From the NCBI GenBank assembly GCA_016931615.1, contig JAFGEL010000065.1, positions 61,718-125,717 on the forward strand: a stretch of DNA of 64,000 bases. Direction: 5' to 3'. Below the pieces are notes generated by a model, which was not told the origin of the DNA, searched no databases, and saw nothing but the letters and a program-made list of their open reading frames with translations. Of this stretch, positions 13,365-23,645 are shown one piece after another (the first letter of the stretch is position 1; the number at the start of each line of letters is the position of its first letter). The DNA is from Desulfuromonadales bacterium (GTDB taxonomy: Bacteria; Desulfobacterota; Desulfuromonadia; Desulfuromonadales; Geopsychrobacteraceae). The translations under genes and the position numbers were made by a program.

Positions 13365-14288
13365 ATGACTTTCTCTGAACAACCTCTGCTGATTTTTGAC
13401 GGAGCCTGCGGAACCAATCTGCAGCTTGTCGATATCGGTGAAAAAGACTGGGATGGCTGCGAAGGCTGTAATGAAATTCTCAACCTGACGGCGCCCCGGT
13501 ATATCGTTGATCTGCATCGTTCGATGCTTGAGGCCGGGGCAATGGTGCTTGAAACCGATACGTTCGGCGCTTCACGGATTGTCCTGGCTGAGTATGGTCT
13601 TGAGGACCGGGTCCAGGAAATCAACCGCCGGGCCGTTGCCAATGCCCGTCAAGCGATCGGGGATCTGCCCGATAAATATGTTGCCGGATCGGTGGGACCC
13701 GGAACCAAACTGCCTTCACTCGGGCATATCGAAGTGAGGGCGCTCGCGGCGGCAACTCGTGAACAGGTTGAAGCCCTCGTCGATGCCGGTGTTGATTGTC
13801 TGATGATCGAGACCTGTCAGGACCTGCTGCAAGTCAAGACCGCCCTGGTTGCCGCCTTTGACGTGCTGAACAGCGCGAAACTTGACTTGCCGGTCATGGT
13901 TTCCGTGACCATAGAGCAGCAGGGGACAATGCTGGTTGGATCGGATATCGCCGCGATTGTCGCAACCCTTGAACCTTACCCGCTGTTTTCCCTCGGGTTG
14001 AATTGCGCGACCGGGCCGCAGGACATGATGTCGCATGTGCAGTATCTCAGTCAGAACTGGCCACGGCGTATCTCCGTGATTCCGAACCAGGGCCTGCCCG
14101 AAGTTGTGGCTGGTCAAACGCATTATCCGTTGAGTCCCGAAGATTATGCCGAGCAGATGTACGGATTTGTCGTGAACCAGGGCGTCAGTATCGTCGGGGG
14201 GTGCTGCGGGACCAGTCCGAAGCATATCAGGGCTCTGGTGCAGCGTCTTGCAGGGGTTGAAGTGAAAAAGCGGGAGGTGTCGGCATGA
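13365..14288 (+). CDS. homocysteine S-methyltransferase domain protein (N-terminal MetH module)
   Basis: FDGACGTNLQ, LGLNCATGPQDM, Zn-ligand VGGCCGTSPKHIRAL. Confidence 0.88.
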   Translation: MTFSEQPLLIFDGACGTNLQLVDIGEKDWDGCEGCNEILNLTAPRYIVDLHRSMLEAGAMVLETDTFGASRIVLAEYGLEDRVQEINRRAVANARQAIGDLPDKYVAGSVGPGTKLPSLGHIEVRALAAATREQVEALVDAGVDCLMIETCQDLLQVKTALVAAFDVLNSAKLDLPVMVSVTIEQQGTMLVGSDIAAIVATLEPYPLFSLGLNCATGPQDMMSHVQYLSQNWPRRISVIPNQGLPEVVAGQTHYPLSPEDYAEQMYGFVVNQGVSIVGGCCGTSPKHIRALVQRLAGVEVKKREVSA

Positions 14289-16714
14289 AACCATCCGTCG
14301 CCAGTTTGTATCAGTCGGTCGAGCTCAACCAGGAAATTCCCCCGCTGCTGATCGGAGAACGCTGCAACCCCAACGGCTCCAGAGCTTTTCGTGAAGCCCT
14401 GTTGGCGGAGGACTGGGATGCCTGCCTGAAGATTGCTCTTGACCAGGAAGCACGCGGTGCCCAGGTTCTCGATTTATGTGTTGCCTATGCCGGGCGCGAT
14501 GAAGTCACGGATATGGTGCAATTAACCAAGCTTTTCGCCGGATCCTGCAAGGCGCCGTTGGTTTTTGATTCGACCAGTCCTGAGACTCTGGAGCAAGTTC
14601 TGCCGCTTTATCCGGGCCGCGCCATCATCAATTCGATCAACCTGGAGGACGGCGGAGCGAACCTGGAACGGATCTGCAAACTGGCCAAGACCTACGGCGC
14701 TGCAGTGATCGCCCTGACCATCAATCTCGAGGGAATGGCTTTGACCTGCGACAAAAAGGTCGCCGTGGCCAAAGATATTTATGCTCTGGCTGTCGATACT
14801 TACGGTTTGCGGCCGCAGGACCTGCTGTTTGATTTGCTGACTTTTACCGTCGGATCAGGCGATGAAACCATGCGTGACGCCGCGGTAGAGACCCTGAACG
14901 CAATCAAGCGGGTCAAACAGGAATTGCCGGACGTTGGGTTTACGCTGGGGATCAGTAATATCAGTTTCGGTCTGCGCCCTGCCGCGCGCAAAGTTCTGAA
15001 TTCGGTTTTTTTGCATCAGGCTGTCGAGGCCGGGTTAAACACGGCAATCGTCGATGCCGCCAAAGTGCTCCCCTACGCCAATATCAGCGAAGAGGATCGT
15101 GAGGTCTGTCAGGACCTGCTCCTGAATCGCAGCCCTGAAGCGCTGATGATTTTTATCGACCACTTCGAACAAGCAGCTGAGACCACAGATGAACAGGACG
15201 AAGCTGGAATTCTGGCTGAAGAAGCTCTGCGTCACAAGGTTTTGAAAGGTGACAAGGAAGGTCTGGATGATCTGCTGAGCGGCCTGCGCGGCCGCTGGCA
15301 GCCGCTGGATATCATCAACAACCTGTTGGTTCCCGCCATGCGCGAAGTCGGAGACCTGTTCGGGCGCGGTGAGCTGCTGCTGCCTTTCGTTCTGCAGTCT
15401 GCGGAAGTGATGAAACAGAGTGTGGCGTTGCTTGAGCCGTATATGGAAAAACTCTCCGATGAGGGGCGCACGTCAATTCTTCTGGCGACGGTTGCCGGCG
15501 ATGTCCATGATATCGGCAAAAATCTTGTCGACATCATTCTCAGCAATAACGGCTACAAGGTTCATAATATCGGGATCAAGGTTCCGGCTGAAGAAATCAT
15601 TGCTCAGGCCAGGGCCCTGAAGGTTGATGTTGTCGGCCTCTCGGGATTGCTGGTCAAATCGGCCCTGCTGATGAAGGAAAATCTGGCGCAATTTCAGGCG
15701 GCGGGTTTGACCCAACCGGTTCTTCTGGGGGGCGCAGCGCTGACGAAAAAATTTGTCGCTCAGGACTGTGTTCCCAATTATGCCCGTCCGGTGGTTTATT
15801 GTACCGATGCCTTTGCCGGTTTAAAGGCTATCCGCGAATTTGAAGCGGGAAACCTGCAGTCATCGACATGGGAAGAAAAGTCTGTCTCCCCTAATAAGCC
15901 GGGCCCGCAGCAGGACGTTCTTGATCGCTCCCATCCGGTTCCGAAGGTCCCTTTTGTCGGGCGACGACTGGTTGCTGATGTCGATGCGGAAAAGCTTTTT
16001 GCCTACCTCAATGAAGCGGCGTTGTTCCGCGGGCGCTGGGGCTACAGGCGTGGAAAGATGGCCAAAGAGGACTACGATCGTTTAAATCAGGAGACCGTTC
16101 TTCCCCTGTTTAAGCGACTCAAAGAGCAGGCTCTGAACGAAGGCTGGTTGAAGCCTCAAGTGGTTTACGGTTATTTTGATTGCCATAGCCGGGGTGAAGA
16201 CCTGGTGGTTCATTCCGACAGCGAAGACAAAGTGTTCAGCTTCCCCCGCCAGTCCGCTTCTCCCGGGCTGTGTATTGCCGATTATTTCCGTTCCGCTGAT
16301 GAAGGTGGTGATAAAGTCGGCTTTTTTGTCGTGACGATCGGCGATCAACTGGCGCGGATCACTCATGAGCTTTACGCCTCGGACAGTTATCATGATTACC
16401 TGATGCTCCATGGCCTGGGTGTTGAGCTGACCGATGCTCTGGCTGAATACTGGCATGAGCAGATGCGGATTGAAATGGGGATCCAGCAGGAACGGGGCGA
16501 TATGGCGGCTTATGTGGCCCAGGGCTATCAGGGTTCGCGCTACGGCTTTGGTTATCCTGCGTGTCCTGACCTCGAAGCCCATGTGCCGATTTTTGCCCTC
16601 TTGCGTCCTGAGGATATTCAGGTAAGCTTGACGGAGTCCTACGAAATGGTCCCTGAAATGACGACCTCGGCCATTGTTGCTCATCATCCTCAGGCCAAAT
16701 ATTTTGCGGTCTGA
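14285..16714 (+). CDS. metH: methionine synthase: pterin-binding, B12-binding and AdoMet-activation domains
   Basis: GERCNPNGSRAFR pterin domain; B12 motif VAGDVHDIGKNLVDIIL; activation domain with HAKYFAV-like C-terminus; ATGA overlap with upstream gene. Confidence 0.9.
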   Translation: MKPSVASLYQSVELNQEIPPLLIGERCNPNGSRAFREALLAEDWDACLKIALDQEARGAQVLDLCVAYAGRDEVTDMVQLTKLFAGSCKAPLVFDSTSPETLEQVLPLYPGRAIINSINLEDGGANLERICKLAKTYGAAVIALTINLEGMALTCDKKVAVAKDIYALAVDTYGLRPQDLLFDLLTFTVGSGDETMRDAAVETLNAIKRVKQELPDVGFTLGISNISFGLRPAARKVLNSVFLHQAVEAGLNTAIVDAAKVLPYANISEEDREVCQDLLLNRSPEALMIFIDHFEQAAETTDEQDEAGILAEEALRHKVLKGDKEGLDDLLSGLRGRWQPLDIINNLLVPAMREVGDLFGRGELLLPFVLQSAEVMKQSVALLEPYMEKLSDEGRTSILLATVAGDVHDIGKNLVDIILSNNGYKVHNIGIKVPAEEIIAQARALKVDVVGLSGLLVKSALLMKENLAQFQAAGLTQPVLLGGAALTKKFVAQDCVPNYARPVVYCTDAFAGLKAIREFEAGNLQSSTWEEKSVSPNKPGPQQDVLDRSHPVPKVPFVGRRLVADVDAEKLFAYLNEAALFRGRWGYRRGKMAKEDYDRLNQETVLPLFKRLKEQALNEGWLKPQVVYGYFDCHSRGEDLVVHSDSEDKVFSFPRQSASPGLCIADYFRSADEGGDKVGFFVVTIGDQLARITHELYASDSYHDYLMLHGLGVELTDALAEYWHEQMRIEMGIQQERGDMAAYVAQGYQGSRYGFGYPACPDLEAHVPIFALLRPEDIQVSLTESYEMVPEMTTSAIVAHHPQAKYFAV

Positions 16715-16740: not shown

Positions 16741-16899
16741 ATGCGTTATATCTGTACCTGCTGCGGCTATGTCTATGATCCTGAAAAAGGGGATCCGTTG
16801 AATAATGTCTCCCCGGGAGTCGAATTTGAAGACCTTCCTCAAGGCTGGGTCTGCCCCCTCTGTTATGCCGAAACTGATCAGTTTGATCCTCTGGATTGA
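16741..16899 (+). CDS. rubredoxin (52 aa; absent from the ORF track)
   Basis: MRYICTCCGYVYDPEKGDPLNNVSPGVEFEDLPQGWVCPLCYAETDQFDPLD; two CxxC-type Fe sites. Confidence 0.93.
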   Translation: MRYICTCCGYVYDPEKGDPLNNVSPGVEFEDLPQGWVCPLCYAETDQFDPLD

Positions 16900-16913
16900 C
16901 CAGGCTCACTGTT

Positions 16914-18152
16914 ATGACCGCTTTTGATATTCAAGCTGTGACCACGACCCTGGATAAGATGAAGATGCTTTTCTGGCGTCTCGATCTGTCAAAGCGGTCA
17001 TTTATGAATCTGAATGAATGTAGTGCCGGGGTCCTTGGTCTTGAAAACTACCGCTTTTTTAAAGATCGGGATTATCGCGAGAAAATACTTTTCCCGGATG
17101 ACCGTATTCTGATGGATCGCACCATGGCCAGCATTAAAGAGCGCATGCCGGTCCGCACGGTTTTTCGCGTTCAGTCCGAGAATGCCATTTCATGGTTCAA
17201 GTTGACCGGTTGGCCAACTGCCGACTATCGTTACTACGAGGGGGCCGTTGAGGAAATTACTGAACATGTCGCCTGGCTGAAAAATATTTTCAATCAGCAG
17301 GATAAGCGTTTGTTAAGTATCGACGCTGACTACCCTGTTGCTCTCTTTAATGATCACACCCAGAAACTGTTGAAAGCCAATGATGCTTTTTGTCGGTTAC
17401 TTGAAATCGACACCAAGCACGGTGCGCGTTATCGTCTGGCGGATTTCATTCTTGGCGATATCAAGTTGCCGCAGATTCTTGAGACCCTGTTTATGGAGCG
17501 GCGCCTCAGTCTCGAACTCGTTTTAGCAACGCAGAACCAGGGTAAAGCCAGAGCTTTTTGCCAGTTTGAATACTTTTCTCATGGCGGCGAAGGCTATATC
17601 CGCCTGGCGGTTATTGATCAAACCGTTCAAAAACCTGCGGTCGTTGAGAAAAAGCCGCTTCAGAAAGTGGAGGTGTCGGCCCTTTGTGACGATCTGTCTC
17701 AATGCCAGTCTGTTGAGGCCATGCTTGAGCGCATTTATCAGGAAAGAATTCTTTTTCCCGATATGGATGTCGTGATGTTTTCCGATATTTACGCGCGCAA
17801 GAATAAGGTTATCGTTTATTCGCGTGGCGAGATGGATGAGCCTTTGGAGCCGGGCAGCCAATTCCCTTATGCCGGAACGATTGCGGAAAACATTGAAAAG
17901 GAAAAACTGGAATACCTGATCGTCGATGATACTCAAAGCAGCATCAAAGCCATCGACTGGATGCTTTTTGTTCCCAAAGGACTCTATTCCTACGTGGCAA
18001 AAGCTCTTTATGTGCGTGGCGCGATGAGGACGGTGCTGATTTTGTGTTCCAGAAAAAAACACGCCTTCAGCGAAGATGATATTGCCGATGTGACGGCAAT
18101 AGCCACGGCTTTTCATCAGCAGTTGAAAAAAATCAGGAGAATAAAAACTTAA
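16914..18152 (+). CDS. PAS-like sensory protein, uncharacterised
   Basis: Two PAS-like segments followed by a possible GAF-like region; start chosen at MTAFDIQ. Confidence 0.45.
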   Translation: MTAFDIQAVTTTLDKMKMLFWRLDLSKRSFMNLNECSAGVLGLENYRFFKDRDYREKILFPDDRILMDRTMASIKERMPVRTVFRVQSENAISWFKLTGWPTADYRYYEGAVEEITEHVAWLKNIFNQQDKRLLSIDADYPVALFNDHTQKLLKANDAFCRLLEIDTKHGARYRLADFILGDIKLPQILETLFMERRLSLELVLATQNQGKARAFCQFEYFSHGGEGYIRLAVIDQTVQKPAVVEKKPLQKVEVSALCDDLSQCQSVEAMLERIYQERILFPDMDVVMFSDIYARKNKVIVYSRGEMDEPLEPGSQFPYAGTIAENIEKEKLEYLIVDDTQSSIKAIDWMLFVPKGLYSYVAKALYVRGAMRTVLILCSRKKHAFSEDDIADVTAIATAFHQQLKKIRRIKT

Positions 18153-18187
18153 TCGGAACAACCGTTGATGATGTTTCAATAACCGGG

Positions 18188-18221
18188 TCGCAGATGCCAG
18201 TCTGCGGCCTTTTTTGTTTTT
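18188..18221 (+). terminator. rho-independent terminator
   Basis: CGCAGA-tgccag-TCTGCG stem followed by ggccTTTTTTgTTTTT. Confidence 0.75.
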
Positions 18222-18276
18222 GAAATAGCGTTATATCTAAAATTCCAATTCATAAAGTAACTAAATAGGTTGTTAA

Positions 18277-18287
18277 TGGTTATACCA
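18277..18287. promoter_or_regulatory. candidate FadR-family (GntR) operator
   Basis: TGGTTATACCA matches TNGTNNNACNA; lies upstream of a FadR-type regulator gene. Confidence 0.5.
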
Positions 18288-18421
18288 ATCTTAAGATGGC
18301 TATTTATCAGAAGTGATAATATTTGCGAATCTGTTCTTTCAAAACATGATTCTATTTTTAAGTTGCTTAAAAGTTTAGATTGGTTTATACAATCTTTATT
18401 ATTGTTAGAAGGAAACCGAGC

Positions 18422-19099
18422 ATGTCTGTTGTTGATACGGTGATGTTGAAAATTGAGGAGTTGAATCTTTCTGTTGGTGATAGGCTGCCCTCAGAACGGA
18501 GTTTGGCTGAGTATTGCGATATCAGCCGCTCCAGCGTCAGAAATGCTTTGAAAGAGCTGCAGTCCAAGCGTGTTCTCAACGTCAAGCAGGGGAGCGGATA
18601 TTTTCTCTCTTCCGACTTTGCTTTGAAACAGGCTCTTGATAAGCAGGACACCGAATGGTCAATGACCAGAATTAGTCAGGTTTTTCAGGCGCGCATGCTG
18701 GTGGCTGCTCATGTGACGGCTATGGGATCTCAGCAGATGACGGCTGATGCGTTGCTTGACCTGGAAAACTGCCTGGTTGACCTTGGCAAGGCGGTGATCA
18801 ATGTTGATATCTCGGCCATGGAGATCCTGCACAACCGCTTCATCAATATTATCTTTGAAAGCAGTTCCAACCCTGAGTTTATTCGCATGCTGAATGAAGT
18901 CCGAATACCGACGCATTACGTCAGTAAGGTTTTGCAATTGGCGGAAGGGGATGAAAGAAACGCTTACTTTTCGGAGCACGTTAATTTATTTCAGGCGATT
19001 AAAAAGCGTGATCATGAGCTGGCTAAACAGATTTGTGTGCGGATGAGTGAGTACTTATCTGCCTTGTTTGAACGTTATTCGCAAATGATCTTTCAGTGA
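18422..19099 (+). CDS. FadR-type GntR family transcriptional regulator
   Basis: wHTH VGDRLPSERSLAEYCDISRSSVRNALKELQSKRVLNVKQGSGYFL plus all-helical FCD-like C-terminus; ATG at 422 after GAAGGAAA. Confidence 0.9.
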   Translation: MSVVDTVMLKIEELNLSVGDRLPSERSLAEYCDISRSSVRNALKELQSKRVLNVKQGSGYFLSSDFALKQALDKQDTEWSMTRISQVFQARMLVAAHVTAMGSQQMTADALLDLENCLVDLGKAVINVDISAMEILHNRFINIIFESSSNPEFIRMLNEVRIPTHYVSKVLQLAEGDERNAYFSEHVNLFQAIKKRDHELAKQICVRMSEYLSALFERYSQMIFQ

Positions 19100-19172
19100 T
19101 TTCAACGCCATCTTGAGTTGTTGGCACAACCTCTGAGAGAGGATTCATCAACCCCAAATGAAGGAGGAAGGA

Positions 19173-20237
19173 ATGGAAAGACGCAGTTTTCTTAAGGCAA
19201 TGGGGGCAACAGCTGCCGGTGTTGGTGCCGCGGCGACTATCGGGGCTCCAAGTAAGGCTTTTGCCCGTGGTAAGGAAGACATTGGTGAGTGCAAAAGTTT
19301 GAAGATCACCGTTCTGACCGAAACCAGCTGGTTCGATAATGATCAGTTCAAAAAGGACATCGTTGATTATGGCGGTGCCAGCAGTAACCAGTACGATACC
19401 CCCTGGGATCCGAAGAATGCCGGTGGCTACTCCACCCTGCTCGAAATTGAGCAATTGGATGGAACCGTCAATAAGCTGCTGCTCGATACCGGCTGGAGCA
19501 ACGAATGGATGGACTATGTCTATGATCGCCACGGCATTGACAAGATGATTGCCAGCAAAGAGATCGATACCATGGTCATCAGCCACTGGCATCTTGATCA
19601 CTTCTGGGGTATCGAGTCCACGCTGAAGCACAACGACAAGATCAAAATCTATGGACCGGAAACCATGTTTCCGGAAGATGAAAAACTGCTCTATGGTGGC
19701 AGACTGGAGGCCAAAGGTCAGCTGATATGTAAGAATGATGTTCCATTTAAAGGGGAACTGGTGAAGACTAACCCGAAGGAGTATTACAAACTCTATCCAG
19801 GCGTTGCCGTCAAGGAATTTGATGTGCCGATTCTGCTGCGGGTCCGTGGTGAAAACATCATTTACGTCAATGTTAAGGATAAGGGGATCGTCACGGTTAC
19901 CGGTTGCTGCCACCCCGGTCTGTTGACCCTTTACTCTACCGCCAGACGTGAGATCAAGGGTGGTGAAAATATTTATGGGTGTTACGGTGGCTTGCACATC
20001 TCCCTGTTCGAAAACTGGGATCCCAAGATGGACGATATCATCAAGGGCGCCAAGGCCTTCAACCCGAAGAAGATGGGTTGTAATCACTGCACCGGTTGGG
20101 TCTGGGCTGAAAACGCCGCCAAGGCAGGGCTGCCGATCGTCAAGGGAACGGATACCTTTAAGACCTACCCGAGACAATCTGCCGTGGCCAAGGATAACAA
20201 CGTGTTCCTGACCAACGGAGACACGGTCGTCTTCTGA
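19173..20237 (+). CDS. Tat-exported MBL-fold metallo-hydrolase (COG1237-like)
   Basis: Tat signal MERRSFLKAMGATAAG; metal motif SHWHLDHFWG; VTGCCHPGLL; GCNHCTGW near C-terminus. Confidence 0.85.
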   Translation: MERRSFLKAMGATAAGVGAAATIGAPSKAFARGKEDIGECKSLKITVLTETSWFDNDQFKKDIVDYGGASSNQYDTPWDPKNAGGYSTLLEIEQLDGTVNKLLLDTGWSNEWMDYVYDRHGIDKMIASKEIDTMVISHWHLDHFWGIESTLKHNDKIKIYGPETMFPEDEKLLYGGRLEAKGQLICKNDVPFKGELVKTNPKEYYKLYPGVAVKEFDVPILLRVRGENIIYVNVKDKGIVTVTGCCHPGLLTLYSTARREIKGGENIYGCYGGLHISLFENWDPKMDDIIKGAKAFNPKKMGCNHCTGWVWAENAAKAGLPIVKGTDTFKTYPRQSAVAKDNNVFLTNGDTVVF

Positions 20238-20249
20238 TTTTATCTGCAT

Positions 20250-20286
20250 GGGTGCAGCATCAGTAATGCTGCACCCTTATTTGTTT
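20250..20286 (+). terminator. intra-operon hairpin/terminator
   Basis: GGGTGCAGCAT-cagta-ATGCTGCACCC perfect 11-bp stem then TTATTTGTTTG. Confidence 0.65.
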
Positions 20287-20305
20287 GATCTTGAGAGGTT
20301 ACGAA

Positions 20306-21499
20306 ATGACTACAACAAAAAATAATTACCTCTTCGGCCTGATTGCGTTTGTCGTCATGATCGTGGTTAATTTTGGCCTGTGGCGTTTGTTTTTTGCCCC
20401 GAGTAACGGCGTGTTCAAGCTGTTTACGCCCATGTATGGTTTGTCGTTGGCCGCTTTCTACTTTTATGCTGTGATCCTGGTGGCTGATGTGTTCGGGTGG
20501 AAGAATGACACGGGGAATGTGGCAAAGGGTATTGCGCCATTGATTACTTCCGGCGTGGTTTTTCTGGTGCTCTATTATGTGTTTTTCTGGAATATTCTCG
20601 GCACTTACGGAATTACTTATTTCAGTCCGCAGGCCCAGATCGCAACCGGCGGAACCGGCCTGGAAATCTGGAATGCCCGGGAAAACTCATCTCTGGCGAT
20701 TCTGTTCGTTGTCACCGCATTGATCTGGGTGACCATGATCTGGAATGTCGGTTTCGGTGATTCTCCCTGGGATGGCCTGAAGAAATCCACCGTCGGTTTC
20801 AGTAAATTTTTTGCCACCGCGTTTATCAGTATTATTTTTTACGCGATCTTTTTCCATCCGAATATCACCGCGCTCTTCCTGCCCAAGCAGATCTTTGCCG
20901 GTGTATTGCCATGGTGGGAGGGGATGGCGATGACCGCCAGTTCTTTCTATCATCTCGGCTGGATGTTTGCCGGTCTGTTCGTCATCATGTTCCTCAATGA
21001 CTGTGTTGACGGTTTTCCTTTCAATCTCTTCCGCAATGAAGAGCGAAGCGGTTCCTGGATCGGTGCGATTGTCGCTCTGGTAGTTTCCGTGGTCGGTGGC
21101 TATATTCTCATGTATATCGCCGAGGCGGTCATGTCCTATTACTGGTTTGAGCCGTTCACCGGCGGGAACTACACCGATGATCCACGTTTCCGTCATGTAC
21201 ATACCGCCGAAATAGCAGCGTTCTTCATGCTGGCTTTGATGATTGTCAAAGTGTTTTTCAATAACGTTTTCCAGCCTGCCAACCGCTGGTTGGCGGCGAT
21301 TGTCAGGCTCGTAGTTGTCAGTGCCGTCGGGATGTTGATCTATTTCTTTTACTATTCCGAGACGTTGGGGCCGAAGTTTGTTGATCGTGTTCCGGGAATC
21401 GGTAATCTCGACGATACCTCGCTGTGCTGGACGATCATGTCGATGGCGATCATCCTGGCGTATGATAAATTTTTTAACGCTTTTCCGATTCGTAAGTAA
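20306..21499 (+). CDS. polytopic membrane protein of unknown function
   Basis: Many hydrophobic segments across about 397 aa; no family recognised by eye; start MTTTKNNYLFG. Confidence 0.7.
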   Translation: MTTTKNNYLFGLIAFVVMIVVNFGLWRLFFAPSNGVFKLFTPMYGLSLAAFYFYAVILVADVFGWKNDTGNVAKGIAPLITSGVVFLVLYYVFFWNILGTYGITYFSPQAQIATGGTGLEIWNARENSSLAILFVVTALIWVTMIWNVGFGDSPWDGLKKSTVGFSKFFATAFISIIFYAIFFHPNITALFLPKQIFAGVLPWWEGMAMTASSFYHLGWMFAGLFVIMFLNDCVDGFPFNLFRNEERSGSWIGAIVALVVSVVGGYILMYIAEAVMSYYWFEPFTGGNYTDDPRFRHVHTAEIAAFFMLALMIVKVFFNNVFQPANRWLAAIVRLVVVSAVGMLIYFFYYSETLGPKFVDRVPGIGNLDDTSLCWTIMSMAIILAYDKFFNAFPIRK

Positions 21500-21501
21500 C
21501 C

Positions 21502-21798
21502 ATGAAAAGGCGTGAATTTTTCAGAGAAGCCTTTGAAGAGTCGATTCGGGCCGCTCAGAAAAGTTTTTTGACCCTGCAGGAGACCTTTACCGAGGTGAAT
21601 ACCTCTGTTCAGGATGCCATGGATGGTTCAACGCCCGGAAAGGGAGATTTTTTTGACTCCTATGAAATGAGTTATTCCCTGACTCTGGCCTACCCGCGTG
21701 AATTTTTCGAGCAGATGGCCAGAGAACAGGGGATGCCCTATGAAGATGTTGAAACCATTACGTTGGCGGCTGAATTACACAGAAGGGGAGTGATATGA
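21502..21798 (+). CDS. small hypothetical protein (98 aa)
   Basis: Starts MKRREFFREAFEESIRAAQ; 2 nt after upstream stop and overlapping the next gene (ATGA). Confidence 0.6.
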   Translation: MKRREFFREAFEESIRAAQKSFLTLQETFTEVNTSVQDAMDGSTPGKGDFFDSYEMSYSLTLAYPREFFEQMAREQGMPYEDVETITLAAELHRRGVI

Positions 21799-22523
21799 GA
21801 GGGCTTGATGCCTATCACGCGACAAGAAATCTGATTGAGAGTTCATTCAGCCATCTCACCTGGTATGAGGATGTATGTACCACTTGTGGTTTTAAAGGGA
21901 TCAGCCAGATATGGAAAGTGGATCCGGCCTGGTATTTCTGGATGAATCAGGTTGCGGGGGCTTTTCTGCTGCGTCTGCATGCCGATGAAGCTGTCGGTGA
22001 AAATCAGTACGTCAGCTTGTCTCTGCATTATTTTCCTGCAGCGGATGAGACTCTTTACCAGGCTCTGAGTGCCGGGGAAAAGTGGCTCCTCAGCGATGAG
22101 CAGGTGTTTGATCGGCAGACCAATACCCCGAAGTTTGAGTCCTACGAGCAGTTTGTTTCATTATTTGTCGTTGCTGAAATCGGGTTGATTATTGATCCGG
22201 ATAACCAGCTCAAGGTCCTGCTTTTCAGTGCGGAACTGCCCTCGGAGCATCCGGCCAGGGCTTTTCTTGACCTGTTGGTGACTGCGTTGAACTTTCAATC
22301 CAAGCTTCATCACCAGCGCGTTCTTTCTCTTCAGGATGGGGGGGTTAGAACCCTGATGCTTGATTACTCGACCCCGGTTTTTGAAAATTTTCTCAGTGAA
22401 TTTCATCTGAATGCCGAACAGTTGGAGGATGTCTCTTCACAGGAAAACTTTGCCGAATGGAAGCAGGTTGCGCATCTGGACGCCGTATGCACTATGAGCG
22501 GGGCCTGCAGCTGTCATCACTAA
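21795..22523 (+). CDS. hypothetical protein with N-terminal CTTCG and C-terminal CTMSGACSCHH
   Basis: Overlapping start with upstream gene; Cys/His-rich ends. Confidence 0.6.
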   Translation: MRGLDAYHATRNLIESSFSHLTWYEDVCTTCGFKGISQIWKVDPAWYFWMNQVAGAFLLRLHADEAVGENQYVSLSLHYFPAADETLYQALSAGEKWLLSDEQVFDRQTNTPKFESYEQFVSLFVVAEIGLIIDPDNQLKVLLFSAELPSEHPARAFLDLLVTALNFQSKLHHQRVLSLQDGGVRTLMLDYSTPVFENFLSEFHLNAEQLEDVSSQENFAEWKQVAHLDAVCTMSGACSCHH

Positions 22524-22540
22524 TTCTCAAGGGAGGAAAC

Positions 22541-22837
22541 ATGAAAAAAGTATTTATTCTGGTGCTTATCGTTTTGGCCTTTTGCGTTTCCGGTGTTTCC
22601 GCGATGGACGCGAAAGGGCTGATGGAGAGCTACGCGCTGCACAACCAGCATTGTCTGGCCTGTCACGATTCGGTTGCCGATCCGGAAAAACCCGGCTTTA
22701 CCCAGGATACCTGGTTCCTGATTCTCAACATTATGCATGACAAGTACGGGATGGAGAGTCTGTCGGTGGAGGATAAAGGCAAGTTGACCGATTATCTCTA
22801 CACGATTCGCAAGGGGATTGAGCGTGAAGCGGGTTAA
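22541..22837 (+). CDS. monoheme c-type cytochrome, periplasmic
   Basis: Signal peptide MKKVFILVLIVLAFCVSGVSAM; heme motif CLACH. Confidence 0.8.
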   Translation: MKKVFILVLIVLAFCVSGVSAMDAKGLMESYALHNQHCLACHDSVADPEKPGFTQDTWFLILNIMHDKYGMESLSVEDKGKLTDYLYTIRKGIEREAG

Positions 22838-22904: not shown

Positions 22905-23645
22905 TTACAGAATGCCGTCAAGATAGTCGGCAATATTCGTTCGAATCGGCATGAAATAGAGGTTGCCGTTACAGCTTGTGGCAAAATCGAGCGCTTGTTC
23001 GGCAAAGCGGCGGTTCCATTCCAGGGTTGGAACAAAATCCGGAGGAAAGACGGCATTGTTTTTATTTTCCCAATAATTGCGACTGTTCTCTGTCAGGACG
23101 GGGGAAACTCCCCAGTAGATGGTGAAATCCTGAAGAAACCCCTGGTAAATGTCCATCAGCCTCAAGTCGAAAAAGGGCTGAGTGAAAAATGCTTCAGCCC
23201 CGGCATCGCGCTTGGCCAGAACATAGTCGATCTCTTCCTTGATGCCGCTGCGATACGGATCCATACCGGCAAAAATTTTTAAGTGCGGCAGTTCCCGTTT
23301 AAGCCGTCGGATCATTTCGAGACAACTGGTCCGATAACATTTATGACTCATATCCTGTGGGGGATCACCGGTAATTACCAGGACCGCTTCCACTTCCTTG
23401 CGGGAAATTTCTGCGATGATATGGAGAGGCGCGTCCGGGTTGAAGTCGATTGCCCGCAGGTGGGGGATGGTTTTGGGAAAATATTCCCCGGCGATACGGC
23501 ATCCATCCCAACTGTGCAGATCAAACCGCAGAATATCAGGTATGTTGATTCTTTGAACCGCTGGAAAACGTTGACGCACCAGTTCGAGTTCTCTGCGCAG
23601 GGAGGTTTCGCTTCTTGGAACAAGTTCTATTGATATCTCAGTCAT
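22905..23645 (-). CDS. metF: methylenetetrahydrofolate reductase
   Basis: ISIELVPR N-terminus, LVITGDPP, GAEAFFTQPFFD. Confidence 0.82.
   Translation of the reverse strand: MTEISIELVPRSETSLRRELELVRQRFPAVQRINIPDILRFDLHSWDGCRIAGEYFPKTIPHLRAIDFNPDAPLHIIAEISRKEVEAVLVITGDPPQDMSHKCYRTSCLEMIRRLKRELPHLKIFAGMDPYRSGIKEEIDYVLAKRDAGAEAFFTQPFFDLRLMDIYQGFLQDFTIYWGVSPVLTENSRNYWENKNNAVFPPDFVPTLEWNRRFAEQALDFATSCNGNLYFMPIRTNIADYLDGIL

Follow-up and report, generated by a model that had tools for sequence, protein, structure and literature searches.

Positions 18270 to 22837 of the window, the whole 64,000-nucleotide stretch analysed here (contig JAFGEL010000065.1 of a Desulfuromonadales bacterium of the Geopsychrobacteraceae), were originally predicted to encode a six-gene operon of a periplasmic enzyme, a membrane protein and a cytochrome under a FadR-type regulator. 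All six open reading frames (ORFs) were found there, and the cluster is confirmed as real: its gene order and content recur across many families of the phylum, far beyond chance. Its core consists of an exported metallo-beta-lactamase (MBL)-fold enzyme (MBL below), a membrane protein (MEM) and two smaller proteins (P98 and P242). The six genes do recur as a module, but the predicted block left outside a PAS-type gene that also belongs to it. The genes, with lengths in amino acids (aa), are:

16896-18152, + strand: PAS-type sensor protein, about 413-418 aa, in a separate upstream transcription unit (from hidden Markov model (HMM) matches in sister loci)
18422-19099, + strand: GntR family regulator, FadR/FCD type (PF00392 and PF07729 above cut-off)
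19173-20237, + strand: MBL, MBL-fold metallohydrolase of COG1237 type, 354 aa, exported by twin-arginine translocation (Tat) (Tat motif RRSFLK, PF00753, PDB profile matches)
20306-21499, + strand: MEM, orphan membrane protein with ten transmembrane segments, 397 aa, MBL-adjacent (no Pfam, NCBIfam or PDB assignment)
21502-21798, + strand: P98, small protein (homologues in class A loci and in the class B loci examined)
21795-22523, + strand: P242, orphan, putative metallochaperone or assembly factor (class A HMM finds CobW-fused class B homologues)
22541-22837, + strand: secreted monoheme c-type cytochrome (CLACH), accessory (CxxCH and signal peptide)

The last four genes are as tightly packed as had been predicted: MEM and P98 are 2 bp apart, P98 and P242 overlap by 4 bp, and a gap of 17 bp separates P242 from the cytochrome gene.

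Recurrence of the module

The main survey covered 297 genomes of the Thermodesulfobacteriota, the one phylum that the profile searches spanned, so no restriction of the module to that phylum is claimed here. A single-sequence search with MEM gave good matches in 17 of these genomes, patchily distributed over 13 families, and two further matches with E near 1e-4 that are short fragments. Together with four loci from a scan of GTDB contigs (two from Desulfuromusa metagenome-assembled genomes, one from Desulfuromonadaceae and one labelled Deltaproteobacteria), 21 loci of classes A and B were counted, the window included. Homology searches and a co-occurrence analysis of the predicted genes were run: an MBL homologue adjoins MEM in all 21 loci, in which the identity of MEM to that of the window ranges from 86 to 21%, and the genomes with both genes are the same 17. 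The MBL profile scored above 530 bits in exactly these 17 genomes, and the next score was 458. Four genomes at 402-458 bits have a Tat-exported MBL with no recognisable MEM beside it, thirteen at 283-355 bits have MBLs that are mostly Tat-less and solitary, and one contains fragments. Pairwise distances of MBL and MEM are correlated (Mantel r 0.907, reached in 0 of 5000 permutations; 0.95 inside each class), and their maximum-likelihood trees are in broad agreement.

Two architectures can be distinguished. Class A (the window and L023-L032) has the order MBL-MEM, P98, P242, followed in a few loci by a cytochrome gene. Class B (L033-L042 and L077) often begins with PAS-type and GntR genes, after which come P98, MEM (mostly of about 470-490 aa), an MBL of about 390 aa and a 600-650-aa protein. 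Genes of ExbB/ExbD/TonB type follow this last gene in several class B loci (L035, 13165-13764; L037, 3750-4687; L038; L041), in L035 and L037 directly, a hint that uptake across the outer membrane may be involved there.

A plasmid search with class B MEM gave no match, and in the one with MBL the only matches were two remote COG1237 proteins, 26% and 25% identical. The viral contigs searched yielded no relative. An anti-phage defence system is not supported by the PADLOC models, whose sole signal was a weak similarity of the MBL domain to LmuA (E 7e-4). No description of the cluster was found in a limited search of the open-access literature; judging by this and by the library searches, the module is apparently undescribed.

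The proteins of the module

The preferred start of MBL is the ATG at 19173, which follows the Shine-Dalgarno-like sequence GGAGGAAGG and gives the N-terminus MERRSFLK. The predicted Tat export and MBL fold are both upheld by matches above cut-off, to TIGR01409 (20.3 bits, cut-off 16.7) and PF00753 (33 bits, cut-off 22.7). The signal consists of RRxFLK, a hydrophobic core and an AxA-like end, and its twin arginines are invariant in the 21 loci. The motifs HxHxDH, GCCH, GGLH and CNHCTG are likewise invariant in all 21 MBLs, and the metal-ligand motifs are intact. Among solved structures, the MBL profile matched PDB entries 2p4z (E 3.5e-17), 7dck (2e-16) and 3h3e, which is TM1679 (1.2e-5); these COG1237 hydrolases have HxHxDH, GC-x-H, GG-x-H and HCTG in the identical order. 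MBL is classed as an MBL-fold metallohydrolase of COG1237 type, with activity and metals predicted from sequence. It differs from the COG1237 hydrolases in its Tat signal, its insertions, the extra cysteines of GCCH and CNHC (in all 21 core members) and its obligate MEM neighbour, as well as by a gap in bit score from over 530 to below 67 for generic COG1237 proteins, with intermediate orphan groups in between. Members of the subfamily in other settings include Tat-exported proteins with no recognisable adjoining MEM (L080-L083) and Tat-less solitary proteins of about 300 aa (L084-L094), whose surroundings vary and in some cases include selD-like, selA-like or DoxX-like genes.

MEM, with ten hydrophobic segments, is the orphan that had been predicted: it matched nothing in Pfam, NCBIfam or the PDB above cut-off, the best Pfam signal being DUF1129 (19.2 bits, cut-off 29.1). 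An AlphaFold model of MEM from five sequences was weak (predicted local distance difference test score (pLDDT) 61), and a Foldseek search of the PDB with it found nothing significant. In an N-inside topology, weakly supported by the positive-inside signal, 32 of the 45 most conserved positions fall in outer loops or outer helix halves, and outer positions are better conserved than inner ones (P = 7e-5). H184, Q195, W204, R296, H299 and E302 are nearly invariant and, in this topology, all lie on the outer side.

More distant MEM homologues (class C, 127-146 bits: L070, 8681-9964; L071, 5566-6810; L072, 8436-9719; L074, 8247-9491; also L073, L075 and L076) have no adjoining MBL. They are very rich in histidine (HxHW, WHHYFDD, GNHH) and retain H299 and E302. 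Genes for a coenzyme A (CoA) ligase, thiolase, acyl-CoA dehydrogenase or methylmalonyl-CoA mutase are near five of the seven loci; the class C protein may serve acyl-CoA catabolism as an electron-transfer or metal protein of the membrane. These neighbours, like the FCD-type regulator of the window, give the MEM family a loose link with carboxylate metabolism.

P98 and P242 matched no family in Pfam, NCBIfam or the PDB. P98 has an RRxFF/L motif at its N-terminus with no hydrophobic signal core, and its class A and class B forms are related (hhalign 95.5%). P242 had been described as rich in cysteine and histidine, which was overstated, although it does have a conserved C-terminal tail, C-x5-C-x-C-x-H (invariants C232, C238, C240 and H242). 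An AlphaFold model of P242 from four sequences was weak (pLDDT 68), and Foldseek found nothing significant in the PDB.

The class A HMM of P242, run against all ORFs, recovered every one of the 600-650-aa proteins of class B (E 4e-31 to 2e-4; hhalign 99.6%), of which the N-terminal 300 or so residues are homologous to P242, followed in the C-terminal half by a GTPase of the CobW/COG0523 family (PF02492, PF07683). Examples of the fusion, which is present in half of the loci, are L033, 3323-5152; L034, 5038-6900; and L042, 11110-13050, besides the other class B loci. These proteins have the GxxGxGKT, GCVCC and ETTG motifs and the CobW_C domain of G3E GTPases such as YjiA, CobW and ZigA, but their N-terminal domain of about 300 aa has no known relatives, and P242 of the window consists of that domain only, with neither the GTPase domain nor its CxCC motif. 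The text of a survey of COG0523 (PMC2770081) mentions neither Desulfovibrio nor fused N-terminal domains. All MEM genomes examined have the N-terminal domain. Only two further genomes do: in one of them it lies at a contig edge, and the other (G235) keeps a P242-family gene without MBL or MEM. The CobW-fused protein is apparently dedicated to the MBL-MEM cluster. Fusion to CobW in half of the loci points to a role of the P242 family in metal delivery or assembly. The P242-CobW gene that is kept without MBL or MEM lies at L104 (9408-11375), in a 2.2-Mb genome whose genus has class B clusters in its other cases; it is possibly a relict or serves a different client.

The cytochrome is a 98-aa protein with CLACH behind a hydrophobic N-terminus; its match to PF13442 is below cut-off, and a 126-aa ORF from 22457 was set aside in favour of this signal-peptide protein. 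Homologues are present in only five of the 21 loci, ending the operon in the window, L024 and L025 and preceding MBL in L028 and L029. No CxxCH protein was found beside MBL-MEM in the other 16, which include every class B locus; the contig of L023 stops short of the expected position. The cytochrome is an accessory, optional gene outside the core, contrary to the original prediction.

Regulation and probable insertion site

The putative control elements of the module are:

18185-18218, + strand: intrinsic-terminator-like hairpin ending the PAS unit (11-pair stem and T run; chance alone would give sites of this kind as well)
18276-18289, + strand: operator-like site 1, ATGGTTATACCAAT (TGGTNNNACCA type; ATTGGTTATACCAAT-like), conserved in four genomes
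18363-18394, + strand: promoter-like -35 TTGCTT and -10 TATACA, the latter overlain by operator-like site 2, GATTGGTTTATACAATC (18378-18394)
20250-20286, + strand: terminator- or attenuator-like hairpin between MBL and MEM (-20.8 kcal/mol, z -4.0)

Homologues of the PAS-type gene were found near MBL-MEM in L033 (E 4e-60), L035, L038, L041 and L077 (E 3e-34 or better, with a profile of class A members only, the window and L023-L025); the L033 member matches PAS_3/PAS_9. An inverted repeat and T run were seen by eye in L023 and L025 at the place aligned with the hairpin that ends the PAS unit.

The regulator was assigned correctly, with GntR (PF00392, 52 bits, E=5e-14) and FCD (PF07729, 50.9 bits, E=3e-13) domains above the Pfam cut-off. 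It resembles the FadR/FCD subfamily of GntR proteins in combining a winged helix-turn-helix with FCD and in the type of operator-like site within its own promoter region, and differs from its members in having no close match among the curated NCBIfam subfamilies, for which the best scores were far below cut-off. The region 5' of its gene is divergent among four related genomes except at both operator-like sites, and ATTGGTnTATACA with TTG/TATACA at 17-nt spacing is kept in all four. A generic sigma-70 promoter scan found no excess of sites over shuffled sequences. The two conserved sites are read as candidate operators with an autoregulated promoter.

The hairpin between MBL and MEM differs in stem sequence in the three nearest relatives, with pairing kept (z -4.9 to -6.1), and is followed by a T-rich stretch in all four genomes. 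Its conservation fits an attenuator that would leave MBL in excess over the downstream genes.

The module is flanked by two genes of methionine and folate metabolism:

13365-16714: homocysteine methyltransferase or B12-type methionine synthase, upstream
22905-23645, - strand: methylenetetrahydrofolate reductase (MTHFR) family protein, 246 aa, convergent with the operon (PF02219 E=5e-8)

Two relatives of the same order (G225 and G267) have a methionine synthase or homocysteine methyltransferase gene with an MTHFR gene 1.5-1.7 kb further on and no module gene, the PAS-type gene being missing along with the block; the module is likewise absent from G178 and G381, of the same family. Thus, the block including the PAS-type gene looks to have been inserted in a Desulfuromusa-like lineage, between the metH and metF loci as predicted, the alternative being loss elsewhere. 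An MTHFR homologue was noted near the methionine synthase gene in module-less relatives and is missing at the corresponding place in L025. A functional link of the module to these flanking genes was rejected, because L025 has no MTHFR gene and the loci of other families carry none of the window's flanks.

Possible functions of the module

The module as a whole is best explained by a Tat-exported MBL that is loaded with metal with the help of P242 and docks on MEM, an explanation to which we give even chances. MBL, as a putative binuclear metallohydrolase, would fold and take up its metals in the cytoplasm, assisted by P242 and perhaps P98. P242 would be a metallochaperone or assembly factor, driven by GTP hydrolysis where CobW is fused to it. 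The folded MBL would then be exported by Tat, dock at the conserved periplasmic face of MEM and hydrolyse a small substrate, for which an ester, a lactone or another precursor of a carboxylate is the most likely candidate. An organic acid may be the ligand sensed by the FadR-type regulator, which would repress its own promoter. The hairpin after MBL would let more of the soluble enzyme be made than of the membrane and helper proteins, and the c-type cytochrome would be an addition in the window's lineage and one other. Some Tat-exported enzymes have dedicated maturation proteins, and the module is similar to these systems in having a folded exported metalloenzyme, helper genes of its own and a membrane partner, but its enzyme has the MBL fold instead of being a molybdo- or redox enzyme, and its P242/CobW helper is not of TorD/DmsD type.

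Docking of a matured MBL on MEM is supported by the adjacency in 21 of 21 loci, the Mantel correlation, the co-occurrence of P242, the CobW fusion and the invariant MBL ligands, and further by the conservation of one face of MEM, the operator-like sites, the hairpin, the class C neighbours and the insertion site. Several points weigh on the other side. The four Tat-exported MBLs and the related MBLs of 13 genomes with no recognisable MEM nearby mean that the enzyme family can work without MEM, and one genome, of the same genus as the class B group, has a P242-CobW gene without MBL-MEM. The topology of MEM is based on a weak positive-inside signal and the low-confidence model (pLDDT 61), the substrate class of MBL is one that we infer, and a chaperone role for P242 of the window is argued by analogy, since this protein has no GTPase domain.

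The most serious rival, although a rather unlikely one, places catalysis in MEM, which would be a metal- or heme-containing membrane protein whose His/Glu site (H184, H216, H299 and E302) faces the periplasm; MBL, P98 and P242 would then have accessory or processing roles, and the cytochrome, where present, would exchange electrons with MEM. The nearly invariant H184, H299, E302, R296 and Q195 are indeed grouped on one face, H299 and E302 persist in the very His-rich class C homologues, some of them beside acyl-CoA dehydrogenase genes, and the cluster includes a CobW metallochaperone and, in five loci, a cytochrome. However, identity to the window in distant loci is 43-62% for MBL versus 21-39% for MEM, which suggests that the chemistry is in MBL; furthermore, MEM has no fold match (from a weak model), and most loci have no cytochrome.

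Still less probable is that MEM is a permease for an organic acid that MBL frees in the periplasm and that, once imported, induces the FadR-type regulator. The occurrence of a polytopic protein together with a hydrolase that is exported and a regulator of FCD type, the acyl-CoA synthetase genes adjoining class C MEMs and the ExbB/ExbD/TonB-type genes after P242-CobW in some class B loci are what such a pathway would lead one to expect, but the conserved polar residues of MEM are at the periplasmic surface instead of along a translocation path, no similarity to transporter families was found by sequence or fold search, and P98 and P242-CobW are left unexplained. An inducible periplasmic oxidation coupled to the c-type cytochrome, as first proposed, accords with the position of the cytochrome gene in the five loci that have it and is very improbable, being weakened by the absence of the gene from most loci; to our knowledge, enzymes of COG1237 type have no redox cofactor. 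What stands of the original prediction is a co-inherited and apparently inserted cluster with a FadR-type regulator, a Tat-exported MBL and three unassigned families; what does not is that the cytochrome belongs to the core and that the module serves electron transfer. The PAS-type gene, the fusion to a CobW GTPase, the COG1237 type of MBL and the hairpin that separates its gene from MEM had been missed.

At its most far-reaching, the module may be an undescribed membrane-bound catabolic system, widespread but patchy in Thermodesulfobacteriota, in which MEM is the first member of a family of membrane enzymes, with metal or heme and facing the periplasm, that works in obligate complex with a Tat-exported MBL and depends for maturation on a metallochaperone of its own, P242 (fused to a GTPase in sister lineages); this we regard as doubtful. 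MEM, P98 and P242, three families free of any assignment, are linked both with one another and with a single exported enzyme across at least 13 families of anaerobes, so that the function of all three could be learned from one mutant or one purified complex. The fusion to CobW provides a testable client for an orphan metallochaperone, with respect to both the identity of the metal and the protein that receives it. If MBL is loaded with metal before its export by Tat, the principle of dedicated maturation would extend from redox enzymes to hydrolases of the MBL fold.

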